Origin: a virus | Strand: one strand, 5' to 3' | IMG/VR virus record: IMGVR_UViG_3300046411_000405 | Span: 1 to 21,659 of that record | Length of the DNA stretch: 21,659 nucleotides | Part shown: positions 2,533 through 21,659 of the stretch, piece by piece | Layout: each line of letters begins with the position of its first letter | Position numbering within the stretch: position 1 is the stretch's first letter | Notes under the pieces: model-generated | What the model was told of the DNA's origin: nothing | What the model saw: the letters and a program-made list of their open reading frames with translations, nothing else | The model's database searches: none | Translations under genes and position numbers: made by a program

Positions 2533-2558
2533 AAGTAAGTTTACTTGTGATTACAAGT
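2533..2558. promoter_or_regulatory. two overlapping palindromes before terS
   Basis: AAGTAA-GT-TTACTT (2533-2546) overlaps ACTTGT-gatt-ACAAGT (2543-2558). Together they fill the gap between terS and its upstream neighbour in an otherwise overlapping operon. They could be an operator, an RNA hairpin covering the terS start, or a processing site. No protein-binding family can be named from the sequence. Confidence 0.35.
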
Positions 2559-2785
2559 TATTTTATTATCTTGTCGCAATGTTTGACACCAGTTTGGTCT
2601 GTTGTCATTAAACATTTTTCTAGGCTGCATGTGTATTGTACTTGGTTTCCTGAGTTCCTCTCCGCCGTGCGCTTGGCTGTGAGGCACGTACTTAAATTAT
2701 CCTGGTGATACCAACCTTCAATAGTTTTATTACCCCCGTCATAGACGTACAAACTAAGTATGATAACTGTTTCAATGATTCCCAT
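2558..2785 (-). CDS. small secreted or membrane-anchored Cys protein
   Basis: This 75-residue protein of unknown family has a short hydrophobic N-terminus (MGIIETVIILSLYVY) that can act as a signal or anchor. A small domain with four cysteines follows (STCLTAKRTAERN, VQYTCSLEKC, KHCDKIIK). The paired cysteines suggest disulphides in the periplasm. It overlaps the preceding gene by 14 bases and has no strong ribosome site, so translation is probably coupled. It closes a run of five envelope-directed genes (5883-2558). Confidence 0.65.
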   Translation of the reverse strand: MGIIETVIILSLYVYDGGNKTIEGWYHQDNLSTCLTAKRTAERNSGNQVQYTCSLEKCLMTTDQTGVKHCDKIIK

Positions 2786-3146
2786 TCTTTCGCTCTTCTA
2801 AATCTATTAATCTTTCTTCATGAAATTGTATAATCATATCGTTTTTTAATATCATTGGAATTTCTGCTTCCATTTGTTCCTTAAGTTTTTCGGTGCTCTC
2901 GGCAAGGTATTCCACCAACATGTATAATTCCTGGACTTGTGGACTGACCATGTCGCCTTTGGGGACTCCGTCAATAAAAGTATTAGCAGCTTCCAGGTCT
3001 TTTTCCATAAGCTGTAGTGTAGTCTCAATGCTGTTAAGCCTTTCAACAATTGTAAAATATGACATGGTGCCAATTGCTACGGCAGCCAGGATGGCTAAAA
3101 GGTTACGCGCCGGTAACGAAATTTGTGTCGAGTCTGAGAGCTTCAT
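2772..3146 (-). CDS. single-span membrane protein with coiled coil, 124 aa
   Basis: A hydrophobic segment at residues ~13-32 (ARNLLAILAAVAIGTMSYF) is followed by a long heptad-like helix (IVERLNSIETTLQLMEKDLEAAN). A second helical region starts near PQVQELYMLVEYL. The short positively charged N-terminus predicts a cytoplasmic N-terminus with the coiled coil outside (type II). The start overlaps the preceding stop by one base (TAATG). It shares its architecture with the 109-residue neighbour, and the two may pair. An inner-membrane spanin or another envelope role are alternatives; no family is recognised. Confidence 0.7.
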   Translation of the reverse strand: MKLSDSTQISLPARNLLAILAAVAIGTMSYFTIVERLNSIETTLQLMEKDLEAANTFIDGVPKGDMVSPQVQELYMLVEYLAESTEKLKEQMEAEIPMILKNDMIIQFHEERLIDLEERKNGNH

Positions 3147-3475
3147 TACAATAACGGATTATCTAATGACGCTTTTAGTTCGTCTATCTTTGCATCTAAA
3201 AAATCTATTGCTGCTTGGTTTACAGACATGTCTGATTTTAAGGCTTCTATTGTTTGAGATAGTAATCTTAACTCTTGCATAATTTCTTTGTCACCATTGA
3301 TTATACGATCATGTGTATCCGTAAGATCAACTGTTTCGTTAACTGTAAACTCTTTGTTTTCTATTGCTGATAGTCTTGTGTTAAATTCACCCCATGCATA
3401 AAAACCACCACCGATTGCGCCGACAACACCAACTAGTGCTGCATAGCTAGATAGTTTATTAATTAGATCTGGCAT
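3146..3475 (-). CDS. single-span membrane protein with coiled coil, 109 aa
   Basis: Residues ~8-28 form a glycine-rich hydrophobic segment (SSYAALVGVVGAIGGGFYAW). A helical C-terminal region follows with repeated heptads (MQELRLLSQTIEALKSD, NQAAIDFLDAKIDELKASL). Translation starts within the end of the acidic protein gene (17-base overlap), with GGAG eight bases before the ATG. Its layout (anchor then coiled coil) repeats that of the next gene, suggesting paralogues or interacting partners. Similar small proteins in phages are often called holin-like or hypothetical; there is no motif to decide. Confidence 0.7.
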   Translation of the reverse strand: MPDLINKLSSYAALVGVVGAIGGGFYAWGEFNTRLSAIENKEFTVNETVDLTDTHDRIINGDKEIMQELRLLSQTIEALKSDMSVNQAAIDFLDAKIDELKASLDNPLL

Positions 3476-5231
3476 TTATTTTCTCCATTAGTTTCCTGTA
3501 TGCATCTGATGTCTTTTTCTTTGCTTCTATCATTTTGATTTGATGCTGTACTAAAGGATCAGTGCCTACAATATTTGCTTGTGTAGCATATATTGTTTTG
3601 TCATAGCTGGCAAGACTGGCCTGCGTGAAGAACATAGGGTCGCCACCTGGCAATTGGCGTGTGTCAAACAAAGCAGAATTTGTGTCAAAATAACTAGAAA
3701 TATCAGCTTGTTTTGCTGTCATCTCACGAGAGACAATTTCATTAATTACATCAAGTGTTAAACTAACTCGTTGCATTTCGTTAGACACTTTGTTTTGTAT
3801 TGCTTTTTCTACGGCAGCGACCTTAATATCTAAATCAACTTCCACTGACTCTTTAGATTCTGGCTCTGTTGTTTCTGCAACTTCAGTAGGTTCTGTTTCA
3901 ATTGGCTCCTCGACGACCTCTTCTTGTTCGGCAACTTCTGTTGTCGGTTCTGGTTCGTCTGCAACAATTTCTTCGCTACTGGGTTGCTCTTCAATTTGTT
4001 CATCTACAATCTCCTGTTCAATAGGTTCTTCTTCAATCATTTCTTCCTCTACCATAACCACCTCTTCTATTGGCTCCGGCTCTGGTTCAGGCATTGGTTC
4101 AGGTTCTGTTTCTATTACAAATTCTTCATACATTTCTTCTATAAACTCTTCTTGCATTTCTTCTGTAAATTCTTCTACAAACATTTCCTCTTCCATAACT
4201 ATGTCATTTATAACCGCCTCCTCTACCAGAGGCAGGTCATCAAATAGTTCTACATTAGAATCATTCCAATCTACATCCATGTCCATATCAATGTCTGTCT
4301 CAGGAACGTAGACCACGTCAAACTCTTCGTAATAGTCATCTTGATAGTAATCGTCTTCAAAAAAAAATTCGTCAGCTATCATATAGTCATCTTGTATATC
4401 AAACTCTTCTTCTTCAAACAAATCAGGATTGAATGAGTATTCAATATCTATTGGAATAGGTTCTGGCTCAAAAAAGTCGTCAGGTATTTCATAAATAATA
4501 GTGTCAATGTCATCTATAATATCTTCAACAATATCTATCTCGTCTTGTCCAGGGCATGTTGGTGGGTTCTTTTGCCAACAATATTCAACTGTTGTTACAG
4601 TTGTTGAGGACAATGCCGTGTAGTCTACAGTTAGTGTTGGGTCCTTTACATCCACCCCCGCATGGCCTGAGTTATAGTTTTTATTGCCTTGTATATCAAA
4701 ACTAAAACCTGCTGTAAGTGTGCCATGCGTCATGTTTGGATCAGCATTCATAATCAAAGTGTTGCCATAATTATTAAACTCATAGTTATGATTTGTTGTA
4801 TCTTCAAATGTTGTGCTTTGTGTTGTAGTGTCAACACCATTAGATGCTATTTGATACATTGTAACTGTTGACTCAGTTGGATTCCACCATCGTATGTCCG
4901 CATTAAAATTAGAACTAAAACCTAATCTCATTTCTTCTATTGATACATAGTCTTCTGAGTTGATTGTAGTTTCTGCATATGCACCATCTTTGCCTGTAAG
5001 GTAAATGTTTTCATTAATATCAGATGAGTCAGGAAACATAGAACCATTCCATGTACCATCAATAAAGTCTTGTGATATTAAATTATCTGTAGTGATGGGA
5101 TTGCCTGTTGTTACAGTAGTAATTGTAGTTGTGTCACCTACATTAGGTGTGTCTGGTATAACTACAACGTCAGTCTTGGCTACCGAGGATAACAGCGTTG
5201 CCATTACCGTCAACAATACTAGGTTCTTCAT
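3459..5231 (-). CDS. large secreted protein with acidic Glu/Pro-rich domain
   Basis: This 590-residue protein has three parts. A cleavable-looking signal peptide (MKNLVLLTVMATLLSSVAKT) is followed by a Thr/Asn-rich beta domain to about residue 225 (TTITTVTTGNP, DIRWWNPTESTVTMYQ, ending near CWQKNPPTCPG). The central region (~230-465) is extremely acidic and repetitive (MPEPEPEPIEEVV, EEDDYYQDDYYEEFD), and looks disordered. The C-terminal ~120 residues are helical (IKVAAVEKAIQNKV). A very strong GGAGGAG site precedes the ATG, inside the 3' end of the upstream gene. It should be exported to the envelope or cell surface. It may be a virion or host-envelope protein; I cannot name a family. The acidity contrasts with the basic proteins encoded just upstream. 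Confidence 0.75.
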   Translation of the reverse strand: MKNLVLLTVMATLLSSVAKTDVVVIPDTPNVGDTTTITTVTTGNPITTDNLISQDFIDGTWNGSMFPDSSDINENIYLTGKDGAYAETTINSEDYVSIEEMRLGFSSNFNADIRWWNPTESTVTMYQIASNGVDTTTQSTTFEDTTNHNYEFNNYGNTLIMNADPNMTHGTLTAGFSFDIQGNKNYNSGHAGVDVKDPTLTVDYTALSSTTVTTVEYCWQKNPPTCPGQDEIDIVEDIIDDIDTIIYEIPDDFFEPEPIPIDIEYSFNPDLFEEEEFDIQDDYMIADEFFFEDDYYQDDYYEEFDVVYVPETDIDMDMDVDWNDSNVELFDDLPLVEEAVINDIVMEEEMFVEEFTEEMQEEFIEEMYEEFVIETEPEPMPEPEPEPIEEVVMVEEEMIEEEPIEQEIVDEQIEEQPSSEEIVADEPEPTTEVAEQEEVVEEPIETEPTEVAETTEPESKESVEVDLDIKVAAVEKAIQNKVSNEMQRVSLTLDVINEIVSREMTAKQADISSYFDTNSALFDTRQLPGGDPMFFTQASLASYDKTIYATQANIVGTDPLVQHQIKMIEAKKKTSDAYRKLMEKINARSN

Positions 5232-5883
5232 TTAACTCCTCCAATATTTTGTTATCTACTTTTTCCATATATCGTAATGATGCCACATACTCTTCGTAGT
5301 CTGGTCTTTCTTTGTCGTATTTATTCCACTCTTCTAATGCGTCATCACCAATTTTACCGTTGAATGGACAAGGTGTGCCAGCATGCGCCATACTTTGGAA
5401 CACTCTACTGTCTTGACATAATATAGATACAGCAGCAACCTTCATGTTAAAATCAAACAATAGTTTAGATAATTTCATACGTTCACAATTCATATCACGC
5501 TTTGTAATACCAATGCTTGCACCTATTAATGGTTTTTGCATACCTGCAGATACACCTACAGTACAAAGGTCTTGCGACATTGCAGAAATACCTGGCGCAG
5601 ATGCAGAAGGAACAGTACGTTGATCGCCTGTGTAAGAATTATTGTTGTTTGTAGTACTGTTGGTTGTTGTTGTGTTAGAGGAAGAACCGTCTTGATAGTT
5701 TGTTGTGGCTTCACTGTGGTAGCCGCCTGTGATTGCAGTATTACTAGCTGATGATCCTGATGTAGATTGTGTGTTGGTGGTTGAACCAGCGCCTGTTACG
5801 TCTGCCATTGCAGAGTCCATTAATTTTCCAAAACCAAATAAAAAACTGCATAACACAGCTACTATTACTAAAATACCTTTCAT
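5170..5883 (-). CDS. secreted phage protein, 237 aa
   Basis: The N-terminus (MKGILVIVAVLCSFLFGFGK) is a signal peptide or anchor. Residues ~30-90 are a low-complexity Ser/Thr/Asn linker. A conserved-looking domain follows (ISAMSQDLCTVGVSAGMQ, KRDMNCERMKLSK, KVAAVSILCQD, AGTPCPFNGKIG), with four cysteines that could form two disulphides. GGGGGAG precedes the start at five bases. Its 3' end overlaps the acidic protein gene by 62 bases in another frame. I know similar proteins only as hypothetical proteins of marine phages. Probably periplasmic; function unknown. Confidence 0.7.
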   Translation of the reverse strand: MKGILVIVAVLCSFLFGFGKLMDSAMADVTGAGSTTNTQSTSGSSASNTAITGGYHSEATTNYQDGSSSNTTTTNSTTNNNNSYTGDQRTVPSASAPGISAMSQDLCTVGVSAGMQKPLIGASIGITKRDMNCERMKLSKLLFDFNMKVAAVSILCQDSRVFQSMAHAGTPCPFNGKIGDDALEEWNKYDKERPDYEEYVASLRYMEKVDNKILEELNEEPSIVDGNGNAVILGSQD

Positions 5884-6639: not shown

Positions 6640-7171
6640 GTCGATATCTCCTATAAGATTTTCGTTTATTTACTGTGCCCTCGTAATAGTCCTTGGGCCA
6701 GTTGTCATAATATCCAGTTTTGCGTAAGTTGTCACTAGCTTTTTCTAGCTCATCATATTTTTGTATAAGAACCATCATAAATTCATTTTCAGGTTCCCAT
6801 TCACCTGTTTCTAAAAACTCTACAGGTTCATCTTCTTCATCGTCCCAAGGATGTGCTCCCATAAGGTATATGTCTTGTGGAACTAATATTCTGTTTAAAA
6901 TGTCTATAACCGAATCTAATTCTTCTGGTTCGTATTTTATATCATCACAACCAACTATAACTATCTGTATATCAGGATCTTTTGCTAACTTTGCACCTTC
7001 TATTATAGCGTCTTGGAAAGCATTAAAATTTTTACATTCTAATATTCTGTAAGTTTTCTTGAGTCTAGCTGTGCGTGCGTAAGGACATACAGGAACGTTG
7101 CCCAGGTGTTTATTTTTTGGTTCTAGGTATTTTTCAGACCACTCAAGTATATCTTCAGTTATCGATTTCAT
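6626..7171 (-). CDS. hypothetical protein with VCPYAR motif, 181 aa
   Basis: The N-terminal domain (residues ~1-110) shows NVPVCPYARTARLKK, then alternating strands and helices (YRILECKNFNAFQDAI, PDIQIVIVGCDD, ILVPQDIYLMGAHPWDD). That suggests an alpha/beta fold with a conserved Cys near the start. The C-terminal third is acidic then basic (DDEEDEPVEFLE, NKRKSYRRYRHE). The CPYAR motif recalls small proteins found near oxygenases and in DUF1415, but the match is too weak to assign. It overlaps the peptidase gene by 17 bases and the basic protein gene by 14. Confidence 0.6.
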   Translation of the reverse strand: MKSITEDILEWSEKYLEPKNKHLGNVPVCPYARTARLKKTYRILECKNFNAFQDAIIEGAKLAKDPDIQIVIVGCDDIKYEPEELDSVIDILNRILVPQDIYLMGAHPWDDEEDEPVEFLETGEWEPENEFMMVLIQKYDELEKASDNLRKTGYYDNWPKDYYEGTVNKRKSYRRYRHETS

Positions 7172-7559
7172 TTAAATGTTTTTTAAGCATGTCTAACAAC
7201 CAGGGGTTGTCTCTATATACGCCCATCATAAAATTAGATATTGTATTTACAGTTAATTCTTCTGCATCGTCTTCTTTTAATGGGCCGTTTGCTTGGTTAA
7301 GTCCGGCTATATACACCACCGCATGTAAAATTTCATGCCACGTAGTATTGCAGCGCTCTTGTCCTACCAATGCATCTTGGATATAGATAACTCCTTCTCT
7401 GGCCCGGTATTCACCATAGCTATCAGTCATGTCATCCAGAACAAAACTAGGATTTACATACTTAATCTTTATGGTTCTGTAACCAACTTTAACTTCAGTA
7501 GGTCTGCCATTTGCAGGTACTTCGTGTGCTTCTGTTAATGTTTGTTTTTTTCTAATCAT
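7155..7559 (-). CDS. HExxH zinc metallopeptidase-like protein
   Basis: This 134-residue protein has a beta-rich N-terminal half (VKVGYRTIKIKYV, REGVIYIQDAL), then NTTWHEILHAVVY (His75, Glu76, His79). A downstream acidic helix, EDDAEELTVNTISNF, can give the third zinc ligand (Glu100 or 101). The layout resembles ImmA/IrrE- or SprT-like minimal metallopeptidases common in phages, which cut repressors or act on virion or host proteins. The substrate is unknown. It is the first gene of the leftward late block, directly after the 7560-7853 control region; a promoter-like arm starts ~20 bases upstream. Confidence 0.75.
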   Translation of the reverse strand: MIRKKQTLTEAHEVPANGRPTEVKVGYRTIKIKYVNPSFVLDDMTDSYGEYRAREGVIYIQDALVGQERCNTTWHEILHAVVYIAGLNQANGPLKEDDAEELTVNTISNFMMGVYRDNPWLLDMLKKHLNEIDN

Positions 7560-7853: not shown

Positions 7854-8069
7854 TCACACTTCCTCCGCATATCTATTCTCGCAAAAGAAAACAAAACTTT
7901 TTAACTCGTCTCCATACTCAATAACATGTGGTGTCAACAACTCTATCTTGTTCTCATATATATACTTGTGGCACGCCCAGGTGTCCTTAAACGTCTGTTC
8001 TAGGTATACCCGGTGTCCCTGCTCCGCGGTGCTATTAAACATCAACACGATTGTAATAACAAAATACAT
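7854..8069 (-). CDS. small secreted or membrane protein, 71 aa
   Basis: The N-terminus (MYFVITIVLMFNSTAEQG) looks like a signal peptide or short anchor. A small charged domain follows with two cysteines (DTWACHKYIYENK and SFVFFCENRYAEEV), perhaps bonded in the periplasm. The start overlaps the exonuclease stop by one base (TAATG). It is the last gene before the control region. Unrecognised; it is similar in size and layout to the four-Cys protein at 2558-2785. Confidence 0.6.
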   Translation of the reverse strand: MYFVITIVLMFNSTAEQGHRVYLEQTFKDTWACHKYIYENKIELLTPHVIEYGDELKSFVFFCENRYAEEV

Positions 8070-9209: not shown

Positions 9210-9605
9210 TTATTCCTTCATAGCATACGGATCCGTTGACAACTCACGTTGTTTTTTCTCCGGCTGCTTGCCCATAATTATATCTTCCATGTTCTTGTAC
9301 AGATAGTTGGCCATCTGACCAACCACGTTGTCTTGTGATAGCGTATCTACCAATTCTTTTAAACTTTCACCGTGTTGCATGCACCTAGATATAAGTTTGC
9401 CGCTTGCACGCAGTTCTCTATCTAAATATGAATCTGTTGGTTTCAGTTTAATCCAAAAAGCCATGGGCGTTAGCCCAGTGTCGTTTGCTGTATAGTCTAG
9501 TATGCCTACAACCCGTCTACCATCGATTGGTAAAGCGAAAGTTGCACTCATCATCCTATTCGGAATCTCTCTTCTCACGTTTTTGTTTTCCTTAATCAAA
9601 GTCAT
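9210..9605 (-). CDS. stand-alone TSCPD-like (NrdJ C-terminal-type) protein
   Basis: This 131-residue protein resembles short proteins related to the C-terminal TSCPD domain of B12-dependent ribonucleotide reductases. It has RREIPNRMMSATF at the N-terminus, FWIKLKPTDSYLDRELRASGKLIS, and RCMQHGESLKELVDTLSQDN. That last block corresponds to the family's LQHG-xxL-xxL element. The domain is thought to aid substrate or zinc binding in the reductase; the role of stand-alone copies is not known. No reductase is in the window. The start ATG has GAGGA eight bases upstream. A GTG nine codons later, with AAGGA, is an alternative. Confidence 0.6.
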   Translation of the reverse strand: MTLIKENKNVRREIPNRMMSATFALPIDGRRVVGILDYTANDTGLTPMAFWIKLKPTDSYLDRELRASGKLISRCMQHGESLKELVDTLSQDNVVGQMANYLYKNMEDIIMGKQPEKKQRELSTDPYAMKE

Positions 9606-9807
9606 TCTTGTGTTCCTCGATAAACTGATACAGACCTATATTCGTCTCCTTCACCTGTACTATCTCGTGCCACATTGTTTCAATTGTGTTTTCTAGTTTA
9701 ATGATATATCTAGAATTTACAATAATAACTATTAGACAAATAAATATTGTAAACCCCAATATCAAGAAGCTAGTGTACTTTTCTAGCTCTTTCCACAGTT
9801 TTTTCAT
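9592..9807 (-). CDS. single-span membrane protein, 71 aa
   Basis: Residues ~13-31 form one strong hydrophobic segment (SFLILGFTIFICLIVIIV). A basic N-terminus (KKLWKELEKY) precedes it, and a helical, partly acidic tail follows (LENTIETMWHEIVQ). GGAG lies eight bases before the ATG. Its start lies inside the upstream small gene and its end overlaps the TSCPD gene. The small size and single span would fit a holin, antiholin or exclusion protein, but it sits among early genes. Function unknown. Confidence 0.6.
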   Translation of the reverse strand: MKKLWKELEKYTSFLILGFTIFICLIVIIVNSRYIIKLENTIETMWHEIVQVKETNIGLYQFIEEHKNDFD

Positions 9808-14333: not shown

Positions 14334-15859
14334 TAGAATGGTGACTCCTGATAAGTTACTTTACTTATACTAGCGCCATTGTCTTTCATAGCCACAATCT
14401 TAACAACTCTTGGTGTTTGGTTTTTTAACGTCATCCTAACTTCCTCAACAAAAATATCTTTTAGTTGTTTTATTAGATTACCAGTTTTAGTTTTATCCAT
14501 TTCCCAATTGTTACGTTTAGCAAATGCATAAAAATCTTCCATTCTAAAATAAGAAAACCCATCATCAGTCCATGCCGTTTTATTAAGTATGTCATCTTTA
14601 GTTCTAGCTTTTGCTCTATGCACTGTAAAGTCATACAATAAATTTTCTATTTGATTGTTTGGATTTAATGACTCTAGAGGATCTATTTCTTGTAAATTTA
14701 ACATCAGGGGTTTTAAATATACCTCGCGCCAGTCTTTGGCTTTTGGTATAGGAGACACTACATTGGCCTGATCTAATACCGCTATTGCAAACAAATTAGG
14801 GTTGTGTAGCTGCTCTGTTTTTAATTCTATTCTTTTACCTGCAACATTTAAAAACCATTGTGGTGGATTAGAATTTATTTTTGTTAGTGTGTCTAACTCC
14901 GGCATTTGCTCTTCTTCAAATCCTACACCAAACTTTTTAGTTCTACATTTCGCAGCATTACACACACCACAAATAGGCTGGTCTTTACATCTGTATTTAT
15001 CGTAGCCACGTTTACCTATGGATGCTAATAATTGTTTTACTTCTTGAAATCCTAGTGGTGGATTCATCCATTTAGAATTATCCTCCATAACTTTATCTTC
15101 CCAGTTATCTGGATTAGCTTGCTTGTGGTATACCGCCACGTTAAATAGTGCATTATTTCTTGAACCTTCACCAAAACCTTCGTCTGCTAGTTTATTTAAG
15201 CAAGGTGGACCATCTAAAAATGCTTCGTTTTTAACTTCTGCTTGTTTTGTTACAACTATTTCTTGTATTTGATCGGGTGTCTGCACTGCTGCATCATATA
15301 TAGAATAGAATGATTCTAAACTAGCCGCATTACATTCATCATCAAAAGCATAACGCAAACCTCTTGCACCACCATGATATGGTAAATTTAAAAAATTACC
15401 GGTGTCACCACGTTCTACTAAAATTTCTGTTTGTTTAGGAAATATTTCACTACCACCAAAACCTAATGCTTCTGACATCATTTTTAGTTTTGCTTGCATC
15501 AATGATGCCATAATAAATTCTGTAGCAAACAAAAACAAATGTGCGCCACCAGATTTTGATCTAAATATTACCAGTGGGAATTTATGGGACTTAATAGAGG
15601 CAGCTAATTTTTTGTGATCTAAATTATATTCATCAACATCTATACAACCCCAACGACAGTTGTTTTCTTCATTAATAGGTATTACACCAAGTGCTGGATC
15701 CTTACCATCAAGGTGGTCTTGCCATAATTGATCAGGTATTGATTCACGTTTAATAAATGCTTTACCAATGGCCTTACCTTTGTCTGTTGTTTCACCTGAT
15801 AAAATTAATTGTCCATAAGCACTGTTGTTGCCTTCAAATATATCCTTAAACTTTTGCAC
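14333..15859 (-). CDS. archaeo-eukaryotic primase (AEP/PrimPol type)
   Basis: This 508-residue protein has the AEP catalytic signature. Motif I is CIDVDEY (Asp74, Asp76), motif II is RSKSGGAHLFLF (Ser103, His107), and EIFPKQTE lies at 138-145, followed by NFLNLPYHGG. A PriCT-like helical domain follows (EGSRNNALFNVAVYHKQ). A zinc knuckle, CKDQPICGVCNAAKC (Cys291, 297, 300, 305), comes next. A C-terminal domain of ~180 residues is unassigned. It should synthesise primers, and may also polymerise DNA. It starts with GTG at 15859, with GAGG upstream, inside the end of the small zinc protein. It replaces the TOPRIM primase-helicase of T7. Confidence 0.85.
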   Translation of the reverse strand: MQKFKDIFEGNNSAYGQLILSGETTDKGKAIGKAFIKRESIPDQLWQDHLDGKDPALGVIPINEENNCRWGCIDVDEYNLDHKKLAASIKSHKFPLVIFRSKSGGAHLFLFATEFIMASLMQAKLKMMSEALGFGGSEIFPKQTEILVERGDTGNFLNLPYHGGARGLRYAFDDECNAASLESFYSIYDAAVQTPDQIQEIVVTKQAEVKNEAFLDGPPCLNKLADEGFGEGSRNNALFNVAVYHKQANPDNWEDKVMEDNSKWMNPPLGFQEVKQLLASIGKRGYDKYRCKDQPICGVCNAAKCRTKKFGVGFEEEQMPELDTLTKINSNPPQWFLNVAGKRIELKTEQLHNPNLFAIAVLDQANVVSPIPKAKDWREVYLKPLMLNLQEIDPLESLNPNNQIENLLYDFTVHRAKARTKDDILNKTAWTDDGFSYFRMEDFYAFAKRNNWEMDKTKTGNLIKQLKDIFVEEVRMTLKNQTPRVVKIVAMKDNGASISKVTYQESPF

Positions 15860-17848: not shown

Positions 17849-19294
17849 ATGATAAAAAATTATAAATTTAAAACTAAGCCATATAACCACCAATTACAAG
17901 CCTTAGAAAAGTCTTGGGCCGAGAAAACCTACGCTTTATTTATGGAAATGGGTACTGGTAAATCAAAAGTGCTTGTGGATAACTTAGCTATGTTATATGA
18001 CCAAGCCGCGATCCGCGGTGCTTTAATCGTGGCGCCTAAGGGTGTGTACAAAAACTGGCATGACATAGAATTGCCTGTGCATTTACCAGACCACATAAAA
18101 CATACTAAAGTATTGTGGGAACCTAGTAACAGTAAGAAAAAACAATTAGAGCTAGACACTTTGTTTGATAAGAAAGGTGATCTTAAGATATTGATAATGA
18201 ACGTAGAAGCATTTTCTACCAAGAAAGGACTGGACTTTGCACATAGTTTCCTTAACATGTTAGCAGGGAAAGCCCTATTAGGAATCGACGAATCTACGAC
18301 AATCAAGAATCCGACAGCTAAAAGAACAAAAAATATTTTAACATTAGGGAATCTAGCATCGTACCGTAGAATACTAACCGGCTCTCCTGTAACTAAATCC
18401 CCATTAGATTTGTACACTCAGTGTATGTTTTTAGACAAAAAACATCTTGGTCTTGATTCATATTATTCTTATCGTGCGCGTTATGCACACATGGTCAGAA
18501 GAAATTTTGGCGGTCGTCAAGTGCAAATTGTAGATAGTTATAGACGACTTGATGAATTGGCTGGTAAGCTAGATAGTTTTTCTTATCGCGTGTTAAAAGA
18601 AGATTGTTTAGATTTACCACCTAAAGTATTTACCACTAGAACTGTAGAATTATCTGACGAACAAAAAGAACAATATGTTATGATGAAGAAAGCTGCGATT
18701 GCAGAACACAAAGGTAAGTTGATGAGCTCAGCTACTGCACTAACAACTTTATTACGCCTGCATCAAATTACTTGTGGCACATTTAAAGCTGACGATGGTA
18801 CGGTGACACCAATAAAAAATAATAGAATTACTGCTTTGATGGATTGTGTAGAAGAAATTGAAGGCAAGGCAATTATATGGGCAACTTACCGCGAAGACAT
18901 AAAAAATATAGTCGCTGCTCTAAAAAAAGCTTACGGAGAAGCCTCTACAGTCGAATATCACGGTGGTGTGGATGCTACCCTTCGCCAGGACAACATTGCT
19001 CAGTTTCAGCAAGTTAAGGGCCCTACACGCTTTTTCGTCGGAAACCCACAGACTGGAGGGTATGGAATTACGTTAACAGCGGCTAACACTGTAATTTATT
19101 ATTCTAACAATTATGATTTAGAAAAAAGACTACAATCAGAAGACCGAGCACATCGTATCGGCCAGACTGGCAGTGTTACTTACGTGGATTTAGTTGCAGA
19201 AAAGACTATAGATGAACGTATAATCAAATCACTTAAAGATAAGGTAAACATTGCAAATGAAATTATGGGCGAAAATATTAAAGACTGGATCTAA
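17849..19294 (+). CDS. SNF2-family helicase/ATPase
   Basis: This 481-residue protein (from MIKNYKFKTKPYNHQ) has the SF2/SNF2 motifs. These are the Q-like YNHQLQALEK, Walker A EMGTGKSK (Lys38), LIVAPKGVYKNW, GIDESTTIKNP (DExx at 147), LTGSPVTKSPLDLY, GGYGITLTAANTVIYY, and RLQSEDRAHRIGQTG with DERI. Phage members remodel or translocate on dsDNA. An upstream ATG (17834) lies inside the promoter, and the predicted transcript starts near 17840, so 17849 is preferred, implying a very short leader. It is the only rightward gene in this half, and its stop overlaps the endolysin stop. Confidence 0.9.
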   Translation: MIKNYKFKTKPYNHQLQALEKSWAEKTYALFMEMGTGKSKVLVDNLAMLYDQAAIRGALIVAPKGVYKNWHDIELPVHLPDHIKHTKVLWEPSNSKKKQLELDTLFDKKGDLKILIMNVEAFSTKKGLDFAHSFLNMLAGKALLGIDESTTIKNPTAKRTKNILTLGNLASYRRILTGSPVTKSPLDLYTQCMFLDKKHLGLDSYYSYRARYAHMVRRNFGGRQVQIVDSYRRLDELAGKLDSFSYRVLKEDCLDLPPKVFTTRTVELSDEQKEQYVMMKKAAIAEHKGKLMSSATALTTLLRLHQITCGTFKADDGTVTPIKNNRITALMDCVEEIEGKAIIWATYREDIKNIVAALKKAYGEASTVEYHGGVDATLRQDNIAQFQQVKGPTRFFVGNPQTGGYGITLTAANTVIYYSNNYDLEKRLQSEDRAHRIGQTGSVTYVDLVAEKTIDERIIKSLKDKVNIANEIMGENIKDWI

Positions 19295-19752
19295 AGAATT
19301 ATCGGCGAATAACTTGTTCGGCCTTCTATTTTTTCTGCTTTCAACATTTGTTTTCTTGATTTTTCCATTGAGCACGAGCAGTGCACCCAACCTGAGTTTG
19401 GATCTACACCATCATAAAACTCTAATATCAATTGATCAAAGTCACAGTTAGCCGCGATCCACGCTGCAAGTTCCTTGTTGTCAACACCAGCTATTTCAAA
19501 GTCTGCTGCCTCACCCTTGGCATGTTGTGACTTAGCCGAAGAACCAATAGCCTCGCACAACTCTGGGCTTCTATAGCCTGAGGATATGATAACCGGTTTA
19601 CCAAAATGCTCACGCACTGGTTGTAGGATATTCTTCGCTAGGTGAATAAGATTCTCTATCTCCGCGGTCCCCGGTTCATTATTAATTCCTTTACGGGTAG
19701 CGGTTTGTGATTTAACTAGCTCTGCTAGTGAAAAATTTTCTGATAGTTTCAT
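19291..19752 (-). CDS. M15 family peptidase endolysin
   Basis: This 153-residue protein matches the Peptidase M15_3 type: FSLAELVKSQTATRKGINN, ISSGYRSPELCEAIGSSAKS, SQHAKGEAADFE (His77, Asp84) and GWVHCS (His124). These give the zinc triad. It should cut peptide cross-links in peptidoglycan for lysis, or locally during entry. It has no signal peptide, so it needs a holin; the 86-residue protein two genes upstream is a candidate. Its GGAGGA site lies in the preceding gene, with a TAATG overlap. It ends convergently on the SNF2 gene, sharing three bases. Confidence 0.9.
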   Translation of the reverse strand: MKLSENFSLAELVKSQTATRKGINNEPGTAEIENLIHLAKNILQPVREHFGKPVIISSGYRSPELCEAIGSSAKSQHAKGEAADFEIAGVDNKELAAWIAANCDFDQLILEFYDGVDPNSGWVHCSCSMEKSRKQMLKAEKIEGRTSYSPIIL

Positions 19753-20792
19753 TAATATCCTCCTCCAAAATTAGGTGTAATCATGTTGCCAAAAATTTGA
19801 CTCGATTGTGTTTGTCCATCAGGCACACTGTTACCAGCTGCGTCAAACATTGGTGATGGTTGATTTATTTGTTGTGATCCTTGTTGTGGAAAATATTGTT
19901 CAAACAATTTTCCTATACCTGATAATAAATCGTCGTGTGAATGACCAGGCTGCGTGTTAGGTGCTGTTGGCATACTTGGCATCGGTGCAATCGGGTTATT
20001 CATAACTGGATTACTGCCTATGCCGAAGCTATCGGTAGTGTCAGGATTTATTGGCTGCATATTAGATGGACCAAATCCCATGTCAGGTCCAGGTGAACCT
20101 GGTGGTGCTGTTTCCGTTGGATCACCAAAAATACTTGGTAGTCCTGTTGCAGGATCCAATGGCCCTTCTACTGGTAATGGTCGTGATGATGTATCACCAA
20201 GAAAAGGCTGCATTGGGTTTCCGTCTGGTCCTAGAATTTGACCAGTAGAACTAAGGTTCATACCTTGAGGAGCTCCACCTGCGCTACCTGCACCTGGTTC
20301 ATAAAAAGCAGTGCCACCTGGAAACATTTTATTGTACGCTTCACTTATTAAATTAAATCTTTCTAGAGTTTCGGGTGAATGTTTTAATCTAGTTGTTAAA
20401 CTTCTCATCACGCCTTCTTGAGCATTTTGTAAATAGTCCATGAAACCTGATCCATATACACCTGCTCCACTTTGACTTGAGTAATTACCAAACAAAGGAT
20501 CTTCAAACATGGCCTGACCCATATGATTAGTAGGTTTATAAAAATTTGAACCAAAATACTCGTTAACTAAAGAACCGTACTTACTGTCACCTTGATAGGT
20601 ACGTGGTATAGTACCGCCTCCTGCTGCTGTACCGCCTCCTGCTGTATACAATGTTCCACCTCCTGGTCCTTGAGTAGACACACCTGCTCCTTCAAGATAG
20701 TCTTGAATTTTTTGTCCTCCACCTAAATCAAGTGTGTTTGTAATTCCAGAACCAGCCATAAATTTTGCGTGATCTTCCATAGTGTAAGCCAT
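19752..20792 (-). CDS. Gly/Pro-rich hypothetical protein, 346 aa
   Basis: The start MAYTMEDHAKFMAGSG is fixed by a one-base TAATG overlap with the upstream gene. Residues ~35-60 are glycine-rich (GPGGGTLYTAGGG, AAGGGTIPRTY). A more globular part follows (EYFGSNFYKPTNHMGQAMF, YLQNAQEGVMRSLTTRLKH). The C-terminal half is rich in Pro, Gly, Asn and Gln. It may be a virion or tail-associated protein, because it lies between a virion-type gene and the lysis gene. No family is recognised, and low complexity makes similarity searches unreliable. Confidence 0.65.
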   Translation of the reverse strand: MAYTMEDHAKFMAGSGITNTLDLGGGQKIQDYLEGAGVSTQGPGGGTLYTAGGGTAAGGGTIPRTYQGDSKYGSLVNEYFGSNFYKPTNHMGQAMFEDPLFGNYSSQSGAGVYGSGFMDYLQNAQEGVMRSLTTRLKHSPETLERFNLISEAYNKMFPGGTAFYEPGAGSAGGAPQGMNLSSTGQILGPDGNPMQPFLGDTSSRPLPVEGPLDPATGLPSIFGDPTETAPPGSPGPDMGFGPSNMQPINPDTTDSFGIGSNPVMNNPIAPMPSMPTAPNTQPGHSHDDLLSGIGKLFEQYFPQQGSQQINQPSPMFDAAGNSVPDGQTQSSQIFGNMITPNFGGGY

Positions 20793-21052
20793 TATAACAT
20801 TCCCATCAGTGTTTCTATAACCATTAATCCTACAGCCCCCACTGTAGATAAAACTACCCAATAGATTTTATCTATCTTACCGCCCAATTTTTCTACGTCT
20901 TCATGCACGTGTGAAATTTTGTCGTCCAGATGTTTAAGATGATTAGTTTTTATAATATCAATCTCACGTTCTACACCTTTAATGTGACCGTAAAGAGAAA
21001 TTATATGTTCTCTATCATCTTCTGGTACTATGCCTTTTACTGTATCGTTCAT
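20792..21052 (-). CDS. XhlA-like membrane protein, probable holin
   Basis: The chosen ATG (21052) follows GGAAG and gives 86 residues. An amphipathic, coiled-coil helix (HIKGVEREIDIIKTNHLKH, DDKISHVHEDVEKLGGKID) is followed by a C-terminal membrane span at ~63-83 (IYWVVLSTVGAVGLMVIE). This order and length match the haemolysin XhlA family, which works with holins or as one. The nearby M15 endolysin supports a lysis role. A structural accessory protein is the alternative. Confidence 0.65.
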   Translation of the reverse strand: MNDTVKGIVPEDDREHIISLYGHIKGVEREIDIIKTNHLKHLDDKISHVHEDVEKLGGKIDKIYWVVLSTVGAVGLMVIETLMGML

Positions 21053-21053
21053 A

Positions 21054-21659
21054 TTAACTTCCAAAAATAGGATCATTTGATCCAAATACTTGTTGTCCTT
21101 TTGATAACGTATTATTAATACCCCCACCTGTTATGTTAGAACCTTGCAAAGTTAGTCCTAAATTAGGCAACCTTACATTTGTATCACCCATGCCTGCTGT
21201 TGGTAAAGAAGTATTTTGAGCACTAAATGGATTAGTGTTAAATGGGAATGGTTCAATCATCATGTTAGTTTTGTTGTATTGTCTAGCTAATCTATTGATT
21301 GTTTCCCGCGCTGCGTTGTACGGGTTCTGTTGTCCTAGAGCTCTAGCGTTTTCTGCAAAAGATTTAACAATGTTTTCTGATGGTATAAATGGTTTGAACT
21401 GACCACGCTTGATAGCATTTAATGCTTTGTTTGATACCCTGTCTTTAAACTCACGGTCCAAGGTTGACTGTCCTGAACCCAGTAATCGTGCAGCATAATA
21501 ATCTTTATTCATTTCTTGTTGCACTTTGAATAGCTGTTCATTTGCTACCATGTAACGATCTATAATTTGTTCTGGTGTTACAGGCCCACCTCTTAATAAG
21601 GGTCTAGTAAACTCACGACGAGAGTTGTTAATACCTGTAGTGTAATCAGCAATCTTAAA
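21054..21659 (-). CDS. partial virion-type protein, C-terminal 201 aa
   Basis: The frame stays open to the window edge: 36 residues (beginning FKIADYTTGINN) precede the first internal ATG at 21551, so the gene continues beyond the window. Visible blocks are RPLLRGGPVTPEQIIDRY, ANEQLFKVQQEMNKDYYAA and ETINRLARQYNK. A Gly/Asn-rich tail follows (NITGGGINNTLSKG). The helical, Gln/Asn-rich character suits an internal virion or portal-associated protein, but I recognise no family. Its stop and the next start are separated by one base. Confidence 0.65.
   Translation of the reverse strand, partial: FKIADYTTGINNSRREFTRPLLRGGPVTPEQIIDRYMVANEQLFKVQQEMNKDYYAARLLGSGQSTLDREFKDRVSNKALNAIKRGQFKPFIPSENIVKSFAENARALGQQNPYNAARETINRLARQYNKTNMMIEPFPFNTNPFSAQNTSLPTAGMGDTNVRLPNLGLTLQGSNITGGGINNTLSKGQQVFGSNDPIFGS

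Follow-up and report, generated by a model that had tools for sequence, protein, structure and literature searches.

Here, we analysed a 21.7 kb virus fragment (IMG/VR record IMGVR_UViG_3300046411_000405; hereafter the window), which carries on its minus strand five successive open reading frames (ORFs), labelled A to E in the order of transcription: gene A (237 aa; 5170-5883), gene B (590 aa; 3459-5231), gene C (109 aa; 3146-3475), gene D (124 aa; 2772-3146) and gene E (75 aa; 2558-2785). As the initial annotation had described, the five genes are consecutive and overlap one another, by 62 nt (A/B), 17 nt (B/C), 1 nt (C/D) and 14 nt (D/E, where the start of E overlaps the end of D), and the gene for the terminase small subunit comes after E (PHROG 51, 3e-11). 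The window phage is of the pelagiphage kind, as its D and A matched mainly Pelagibacter phages. Membrane or signal segments were found in 6 of the 37 window genes, four of these six being consecutive (permutation P ~0.007), and genes A to D were under purifying selection (omega 0.03-0.26 versus relatives). None of the five genes received a functional name from Pfam, NCBIfam, PHROGs or PADLOC; A belongs to PHROG 20531 (function unknown), D to PHROG 20984 and E to PHROG 24646. Matches to ZapD, DndD and spanin PHROG 739 (E 0.06) were weak coiled-coil matches and were treated as chance, including the match of D to DndD (7e-4), the sole PADLOC match among A to E. A search of the openly accessible literature found no description of the A-B-C trio.

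The N-terminus of A is signal-peptide-like (approximately residues 1-27, AMA/DV) and is followed by a low-complexity stretch rich in Ser, Thr and Asn and then by a helical domain with four cysteines. These cysteines (C107, C133, C156 and C172) were invariant in 43 sequences, and AxA stood behind the hydrophobic stretch in 170 of 179 A homologues; the earlier description of A as a 4-Cys secreted protein was thus borne out. The AlphaFold2 (AF2) model placed helices at residues 131-217 with modest confidence, the model as a whole being of low confidence (mean predicted local distance difference test score, pLDDT, 55), and no sequence relative of A was found in the PDB. The 4-Cys domain was also present in chromosomal secreted proteins of Hyphomonadaceae, which are collagen-like or Asn-rich (E 1e-22 to 1e-28). 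Such chromosomal copies in Hyphomonadaceae/Alphaproteobacteria lie at L305:7386-8441, L306:7083-8384, L307:7020-8345 and L308:2-1351 and 1370-2908; one chromosomal protein carries an OmpA domain behind the 4-Cys domain, which we regard as an unnamed envelope domain. The OmpA annotation deposited for A of roseophage CRP-810 was rejected: the common part is the 4-Cys domain, and the actual OmpA domain was found only in a chromosomal relative. Two cultured roseophages encode, immediately upstream of A, a small lipoprotein that contains an A-like domain. At two loci binned as Bacteroidetes and Rhodobacteraceae (L301:8434-10717 and L302:8437-10829), a run of small secreted proteins lies behind A; these proteins look pilin- or chaperone-like, and those of L302, which was scanned, had no Pfam match.

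B likewise agreed with its earlier description as a 590-residue acidic secreted protein. In the AF2 model, a signal-peptide-like start is followed by a beta-sandwich (approximately 42-208), a Glu-rich linker (approximately 211-466) that gives the protein its acidic middle, and a helical C-terminus (467-589). The linker was modelled at low confidence and is predicted to be disordered, and the confidence over residues 81-180 was approximately 64-87 (AF2 blocks). In VIA-align comparisons, the sandwich aligned with the Fbs1 sugar-binding domain at Z 11.9 (145 residues, 3.4 A), with BcsB at Z 9.7 and with CBM16 at Z 9.4, so that residues 42-208 are modelled with a jelly-roll or carbohydrate-binding module (CBM)-type fold. 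B may accordingly be a glycan-binding protein, with the proviso that fold likeness alone shows no function. For B, Foldseek listed phage tail proteins among many viral matches.

C and D both start with an N-terminal hydrophobic anchor, followed by a coiled coil in C and by a helical/coiled-coil domain in D, relatives of which occurred in 35 phage records. The two had been assigned the same layout, which held for the anchor and the coiled coil but not for the C-terminus, where a conserved Asn-Pro-Leu (NPL) marks C alone: NPL lay within the last 9 residues in 170 of 172 C homologues, the other two ending at contig ends, while D never ended in NPL (0/73). This ending is rare: of 7440 ORFs with 60 aa or more, 260 have it, and these are almost all C genes. 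Across 18 divergent C proteins, only NPL was invariant. Two roseophage genes adjoining A that were deposited as '(putative) lysozyme' (L095:3292-3873 in CRP-207 and L094:9207-9629 in CRP-810) look misannotated; they encode C-type proteins with a membrane segment, a coiled coil and an NPL end, and were left out of the endolysin counts. E, the small Cys-containing protein that pairs with D, did not live up to its description as a 4-Cys protein bearing a signal or anchor, as its KD17 maximum of 1.41 and few N-terminal basic residues made neither convincing and only two of the four cysteines were conserved. Relatives of E in L296 do bear a signal or anchor, and by eye the N-terminus of E aligns with an internal strand of these relatives (L296:52-357). 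A frameshift fusion of D and E was considered and dropped, since the overlap varies among relatives: it is 1 nt in HTVC019P, and in HTVC010P a further gene separates D from E.

Relatives were collected from IMG/VR (177 of A in one scan and 40 of a distant B; for A, also 92 roseophage-type and 238 freshwater-type relatives), and gene orders were counted at loci with enough downstream sequence. In the first scan, B stood behind A and C behind B in all 42 pelagiphage-type loci; in the B-seeded set, the corresponding counts were 15 of 15 and 14 of 15. Up to 2.3 kb from A, we found an NPL-ended C-type gene in 70 of 71 roseophage-type loci and in all 58 freshwater loci, and an NPL-ending gene was found behind A in 79 of 80 roseophage loci; for the gene between A and C in these two groups, the B profile showed no homology to B. 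The A-B-C trio thus recurs in phages of SAR11, in phages of roseobacters and in freshwater phages. D-E was found after C (18 loci), before A (14) or between A and B (9), was not found in 16, and occurred with no A-B-C nearby in many cultured pelagiphages. Moreover, synonymous distances to some relatives jumped from approximately 0.4 in C to approximately 3 or saturation in D, which suggests an exchange joint between the two genes. Given these order counts, the mobility of D-E and the distance jump, the cluster is made up of two modules, an essentially inseparable A-B-C trio and a movable D-E pair. The initial annotation had proposed a single co-translated five-gene envelope unit and suggested checking whether the genes stay together in relatives; an envelope-directed cluster is indeed conserved together, and the scattering of genes that it had named as a refuting result was seen only for D-E relative to A-B-C, with A, B and C linked. 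On one 52 kb freshwater contig (IMGVR_UViG_3300028027_000073; L223 and L258), two A-C-GH24 lysozyme loci lie approximately 38 kb apart, reflecting either joined genomes or a duplication.

The cluster had also been judged not to be the obvious lysis cassette. This is true of the window, but relatives carry the same genes inside lysis cassettes, where Pfam-confirmed Amidase_2, GH24 or M15 endolysins stand beside the modules. Two loci (L011 and L014) have the order Amidase_2 - holin-like gene - w7854 - D-E - A-B-C, which L008 shares up to B, w7854 being a small conserved gene also present in the window (71 aa; 7854-8069, minus strand). L070 has GH24 - holin-like gene - w7854 - A-B-C - D-E, and L300 has GH24 - holin-like gene - A - next gene. 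In HTVC033P, Amidase_2, a holin-like gene and two small ORFs precede A-B-C, while in HTVC023P an M15 gene follows it. A holin-like gene was nearby in 19 of 22 well-flanked pelagiphage loci, 12 of which had an endolysin as well; in freshwater loci, A and C are followed by an HExxH protein and GH24, and an endolysin was near in all 24 well-flanked cases. D-E stands behind holin-like genes in HTVC109P, HTVC142P and HTVC031P, and behind M15 and a holin-like gene in HTVC010P; in HTVC027P, M15 follows D-E. In the T7-like phage S28-C10, the holin-like gene (15350-15781) is followed by A-B-C from 15783, between tail fibre and terminase; the same interval of T7 holds the holin, Rz and Rz1, and the lysis genes of Mu likewise precede the terminase genes.

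The holin place in relatives is occupied by membrane proteins of PHROG 2524 and PHROG 38283. We counted 363 phage records with the former; in several pelagiphages it overlaps M15 genes or lies next to them, and a relative in a Vibrio phage bears the label DUF3154, which we take to be the former name of the gene transfer agent (GTA) holin family. The latter lies next to M15 in Skadi phages, and in two roseophages it neighbours a gene for a cell wall hydrolase or transglycosylase; it is also the family found directly before A-B-C in S28-C10. For the window, the initial annotation had placed an endolysin/holin pair away from the cluster. The endolysin was confirmed, while no family confirmed the holin partner; the presumed holin was probably the ORF at 20792-21127, which has a C-terminal membrane segment and no Pfam or PHROG match.

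We then compared the cluster with known lysis systems. Two-component spanins (lambda Rz/Rz1, T7 gp18.5/18.7, Mu gp23/23.1) resemble it in their position next to endolysin and holin-like genes or in the T7 interval between tail fibre and terminase, as seen for relatives of A-E but not for the window, in a predicted inner-membrane anchor with a coiled coil (C and D), in overlapping gene starts, in a conserved C-terminal tip (C) and in the presence of Cys residues. With regard to the inner-membrane subunit, both C and D show an N-terminal hydrophobic segment and a predicted helical/coiled-coil region, with a modest charge bias that favours N-in/C-out. However, spanins include an outer-membrane lipoprotein with a lipobox, none of which was found in A-E or the window, and A-B-C has two secreted proteins more, of which B, at 590 aa, carries a sugar-binding-type domain and a long acidic linker. 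No sequence match of A-E to spanin families exceeded chance. A lipobox scan for short lipoproteins in all frames, which recovered the controls T7 gp18.7, lambda Rz1 and Mu gp23.1, gave no plausible sense-strand candidate in HTVC019P, HTVC202P, HTVC010P, HTVC033P (first 50 kb), ctXG6705, S28-C10 or the window. A spanin-type lipoprotein is therefore likely absent from the window and most relatives. The unimolecular spanin T1 gp11 is comparable in the proposed periplasm-spanning function, but its N-terminal lipobox and C-terminal membrane segment form a layout absent from A-E. As none of A-E fits the definition of a spanin, we propose only that the cluster works like a spanin, not that it is one.

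A role of some kind in lysis appears likely for the cluster. More specifically, and at about even chances, A-B-C, usually together with D-E, could be a late-acting part of the lysis cassette that opens up the outer layers of the envelope and does what spanins do, with no lipoprotein. We infer this function from the position and signals of the genes, and it builds on the gene order, the export or anchor signals of A to D, the conservation of NPL, the predicted fold of B and, in relatives, the neighbouring endolysin and holin-like genes. The genes would be expressed late; Sec would export A and B to the periplasm, and C (and D) would stay anchored in the inner membrane, their coiled coils projecting into the periplasm. 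The sandwich of B would bind an envelope glycan, either peptidoglycan or a lipopolysaccharide sugar, and its acidic linker and helical C-terminus would extend back as far as the NPL tip of C. A would be placed at the peptidoglycan/outer-membrane side, its domain being related to cell-surface and OmpA-linked proteins. Holin and endolysin would act first, and loss of peptidoglycan would release the trapped complex, leading to disruption of the outer membrane. The invariant NPL of C fits such a tip-binding role, and the subunits of the lambda spanin also contact each other via their C-termini (PMC6139136). Somewhat more tentatively, A-B-C may represent a third kind of outer-envelope disruption machine that replaces spanins in SAR11, roseobacter and freshwater phages; with the same reserve, the parts of such a machine might be a secreted rod that binds sugar, a secreted protein with four cysteines, and a coiled coil anchored in the membrane and tipped with NPL. 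Among the envelope functions offered by the initial annotation, outer-membrane disruption was thus the best supported of three, whereas superinfection control and surface change gained no specific support.

Several observations weigh against the proposed opening of the outer envelope. B is far bigger than any spanin known to us. The window endolysin, an M15 enzyme at 19291-19752 (PF08291, 6e-22), lies approximately 13 kb from the cluster; endolysins are also distant from A-B-C in HTVC202P and Baldr, and none was found next to A-B-C in the roseophage loci. No holin-like homologue was found in the window, an absence limited by the fact that the fragment may be incomplete. The holin role of PHROG 2524 and 38283, both listed as 'unknown function', is deduced from position and layout, and a profile comparison of the holin-like family (A3) with the GTA-type holin was not significant. 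Baldr, the seventh relative scanned, has one possible lipoprotein candidate, roseophages carry the small lipoprotein upstream of A, and the lipobox scan missed that of CRP-207, so its sensitivity is imperfect. Finally, a role at the surface or in adhesion would also suit the CBM-like domain of B and the chromosomal relatives of A.

An alternative that we consider unlikely is that the cluster consists of lysis-cassette genes for timing or endolysin release, of the antiholin, releasin or lysis-inhibition type; in this reading, C and D would regulate holin or endolysin from a membrane tether, and A and B would serve as sensors in the periplasm. The genes do stand directly behind holin-like and endolysin genes, and a releasin is known from a comparable place, namely Mu gp25 (PMC9239132), an anchor-plus-helix protein whose gene lies in the lysis region shortly before the terminase genes. 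The depositors labelled C of S28-C10 as DUF2730, the family of gp25, but Pfam did not reproduce this label, and PF10805 (DUF2730) matched neither C of the window (E up to 0.1) nor diverse C proteins (E up to 1). C further differs from gp25 in ending in NPL, and the charge bias of C and D suggests the reverse topology. Because the trio was found with GH24, Amidase_2 and M15, it is not tied to a single endolysin type, and timing would leave the glycan-binding-type domain of B unexplained.

Slightly less probable still is that the cluster remodels the surface of the infected cell (superinfection exclusion, receptor masking or aggregation) and lies beside lysis genes as all of them are late. The lectin/CBM-type domain of B and the occurrence of the A domain in collagen-like and OmpA-linked secreted Hyphomonadaceae proteins speak for it, although the latter are chromosomal, have long repeats and showed no B or C profile match beside their genes. 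Precedent comes from the curli secretion genes of pelagiphages, discussed as superinfection defence or aggregation (PMC9599517, PMC7029224), which are likewise exported, multi-gene and common to several phage families. However, this type VIII secretion system uses other genes (CsgG, CsgF, CsgA/B and FecR), none of which was listed in a Pfam scan of A-E (E up to 0.1), so identity with it was rejected. Nor did A-E convincingly match any model for curli, OmpA, pilins or defence; no means of crossing the outer membrane was recognised in the neighbourhood, and the tight linkage with holin-like and endolysin genes would go unexplained. It is very improbable that A and B belong to the virion or help to assemble it and are exported so that a late step of maturation can take place: terminase genes adjoin the cluster and B has a tail-spike-like carbohydrate domain with phage tail proteins among its Foldseek matches, but the signal-peptide-like starts are conserved in A and largely in B, the fold of B is common to many non-virion lectins, and the cluster follows lysis genes, not tail genes.

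Of a set of phages described by Kongari et al., 20 infect marine cyanobacteria. The hosts that pelagiphages kill include bacteria that rank among the most abundant in the ocean, yet in the SAR11 phages that we looked up, the naming of lysis genes was limited to a peptidoglycan enzyme (Skadi, PMC10504331). The trio beside holin-like and endolysin genes makes the question of pelagiphage lysis testable, and a 4-Cys A with an NPL-ended C would help annotators to mark the lysis region in many marine and freshwater phages that lack annotation.

Some smaller genes of the window also deserve mention. w7854 had counterparts in 57 of 80 first-scan loci. In relatives, it separates the holin-like gene from D-E or from A, and it is probably accessory, with no joint action with A-E implied. 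Its product has two spaced cysteines and an E-like layout, and many relatives keep the gene beside D-E or the holin-like gene. The ORFs at 9592-9807 and 20792-21127 encode two more small proteins, with one membrane segment each and no clear family match. At 7155-7559, a short protein with an HEILH motif is a possible metallopeptidase (DUF6782 at 0.0065, under the cut-off), and it resembles the HEILHM protein adjoining C and the lysozyme in freshwater phages.

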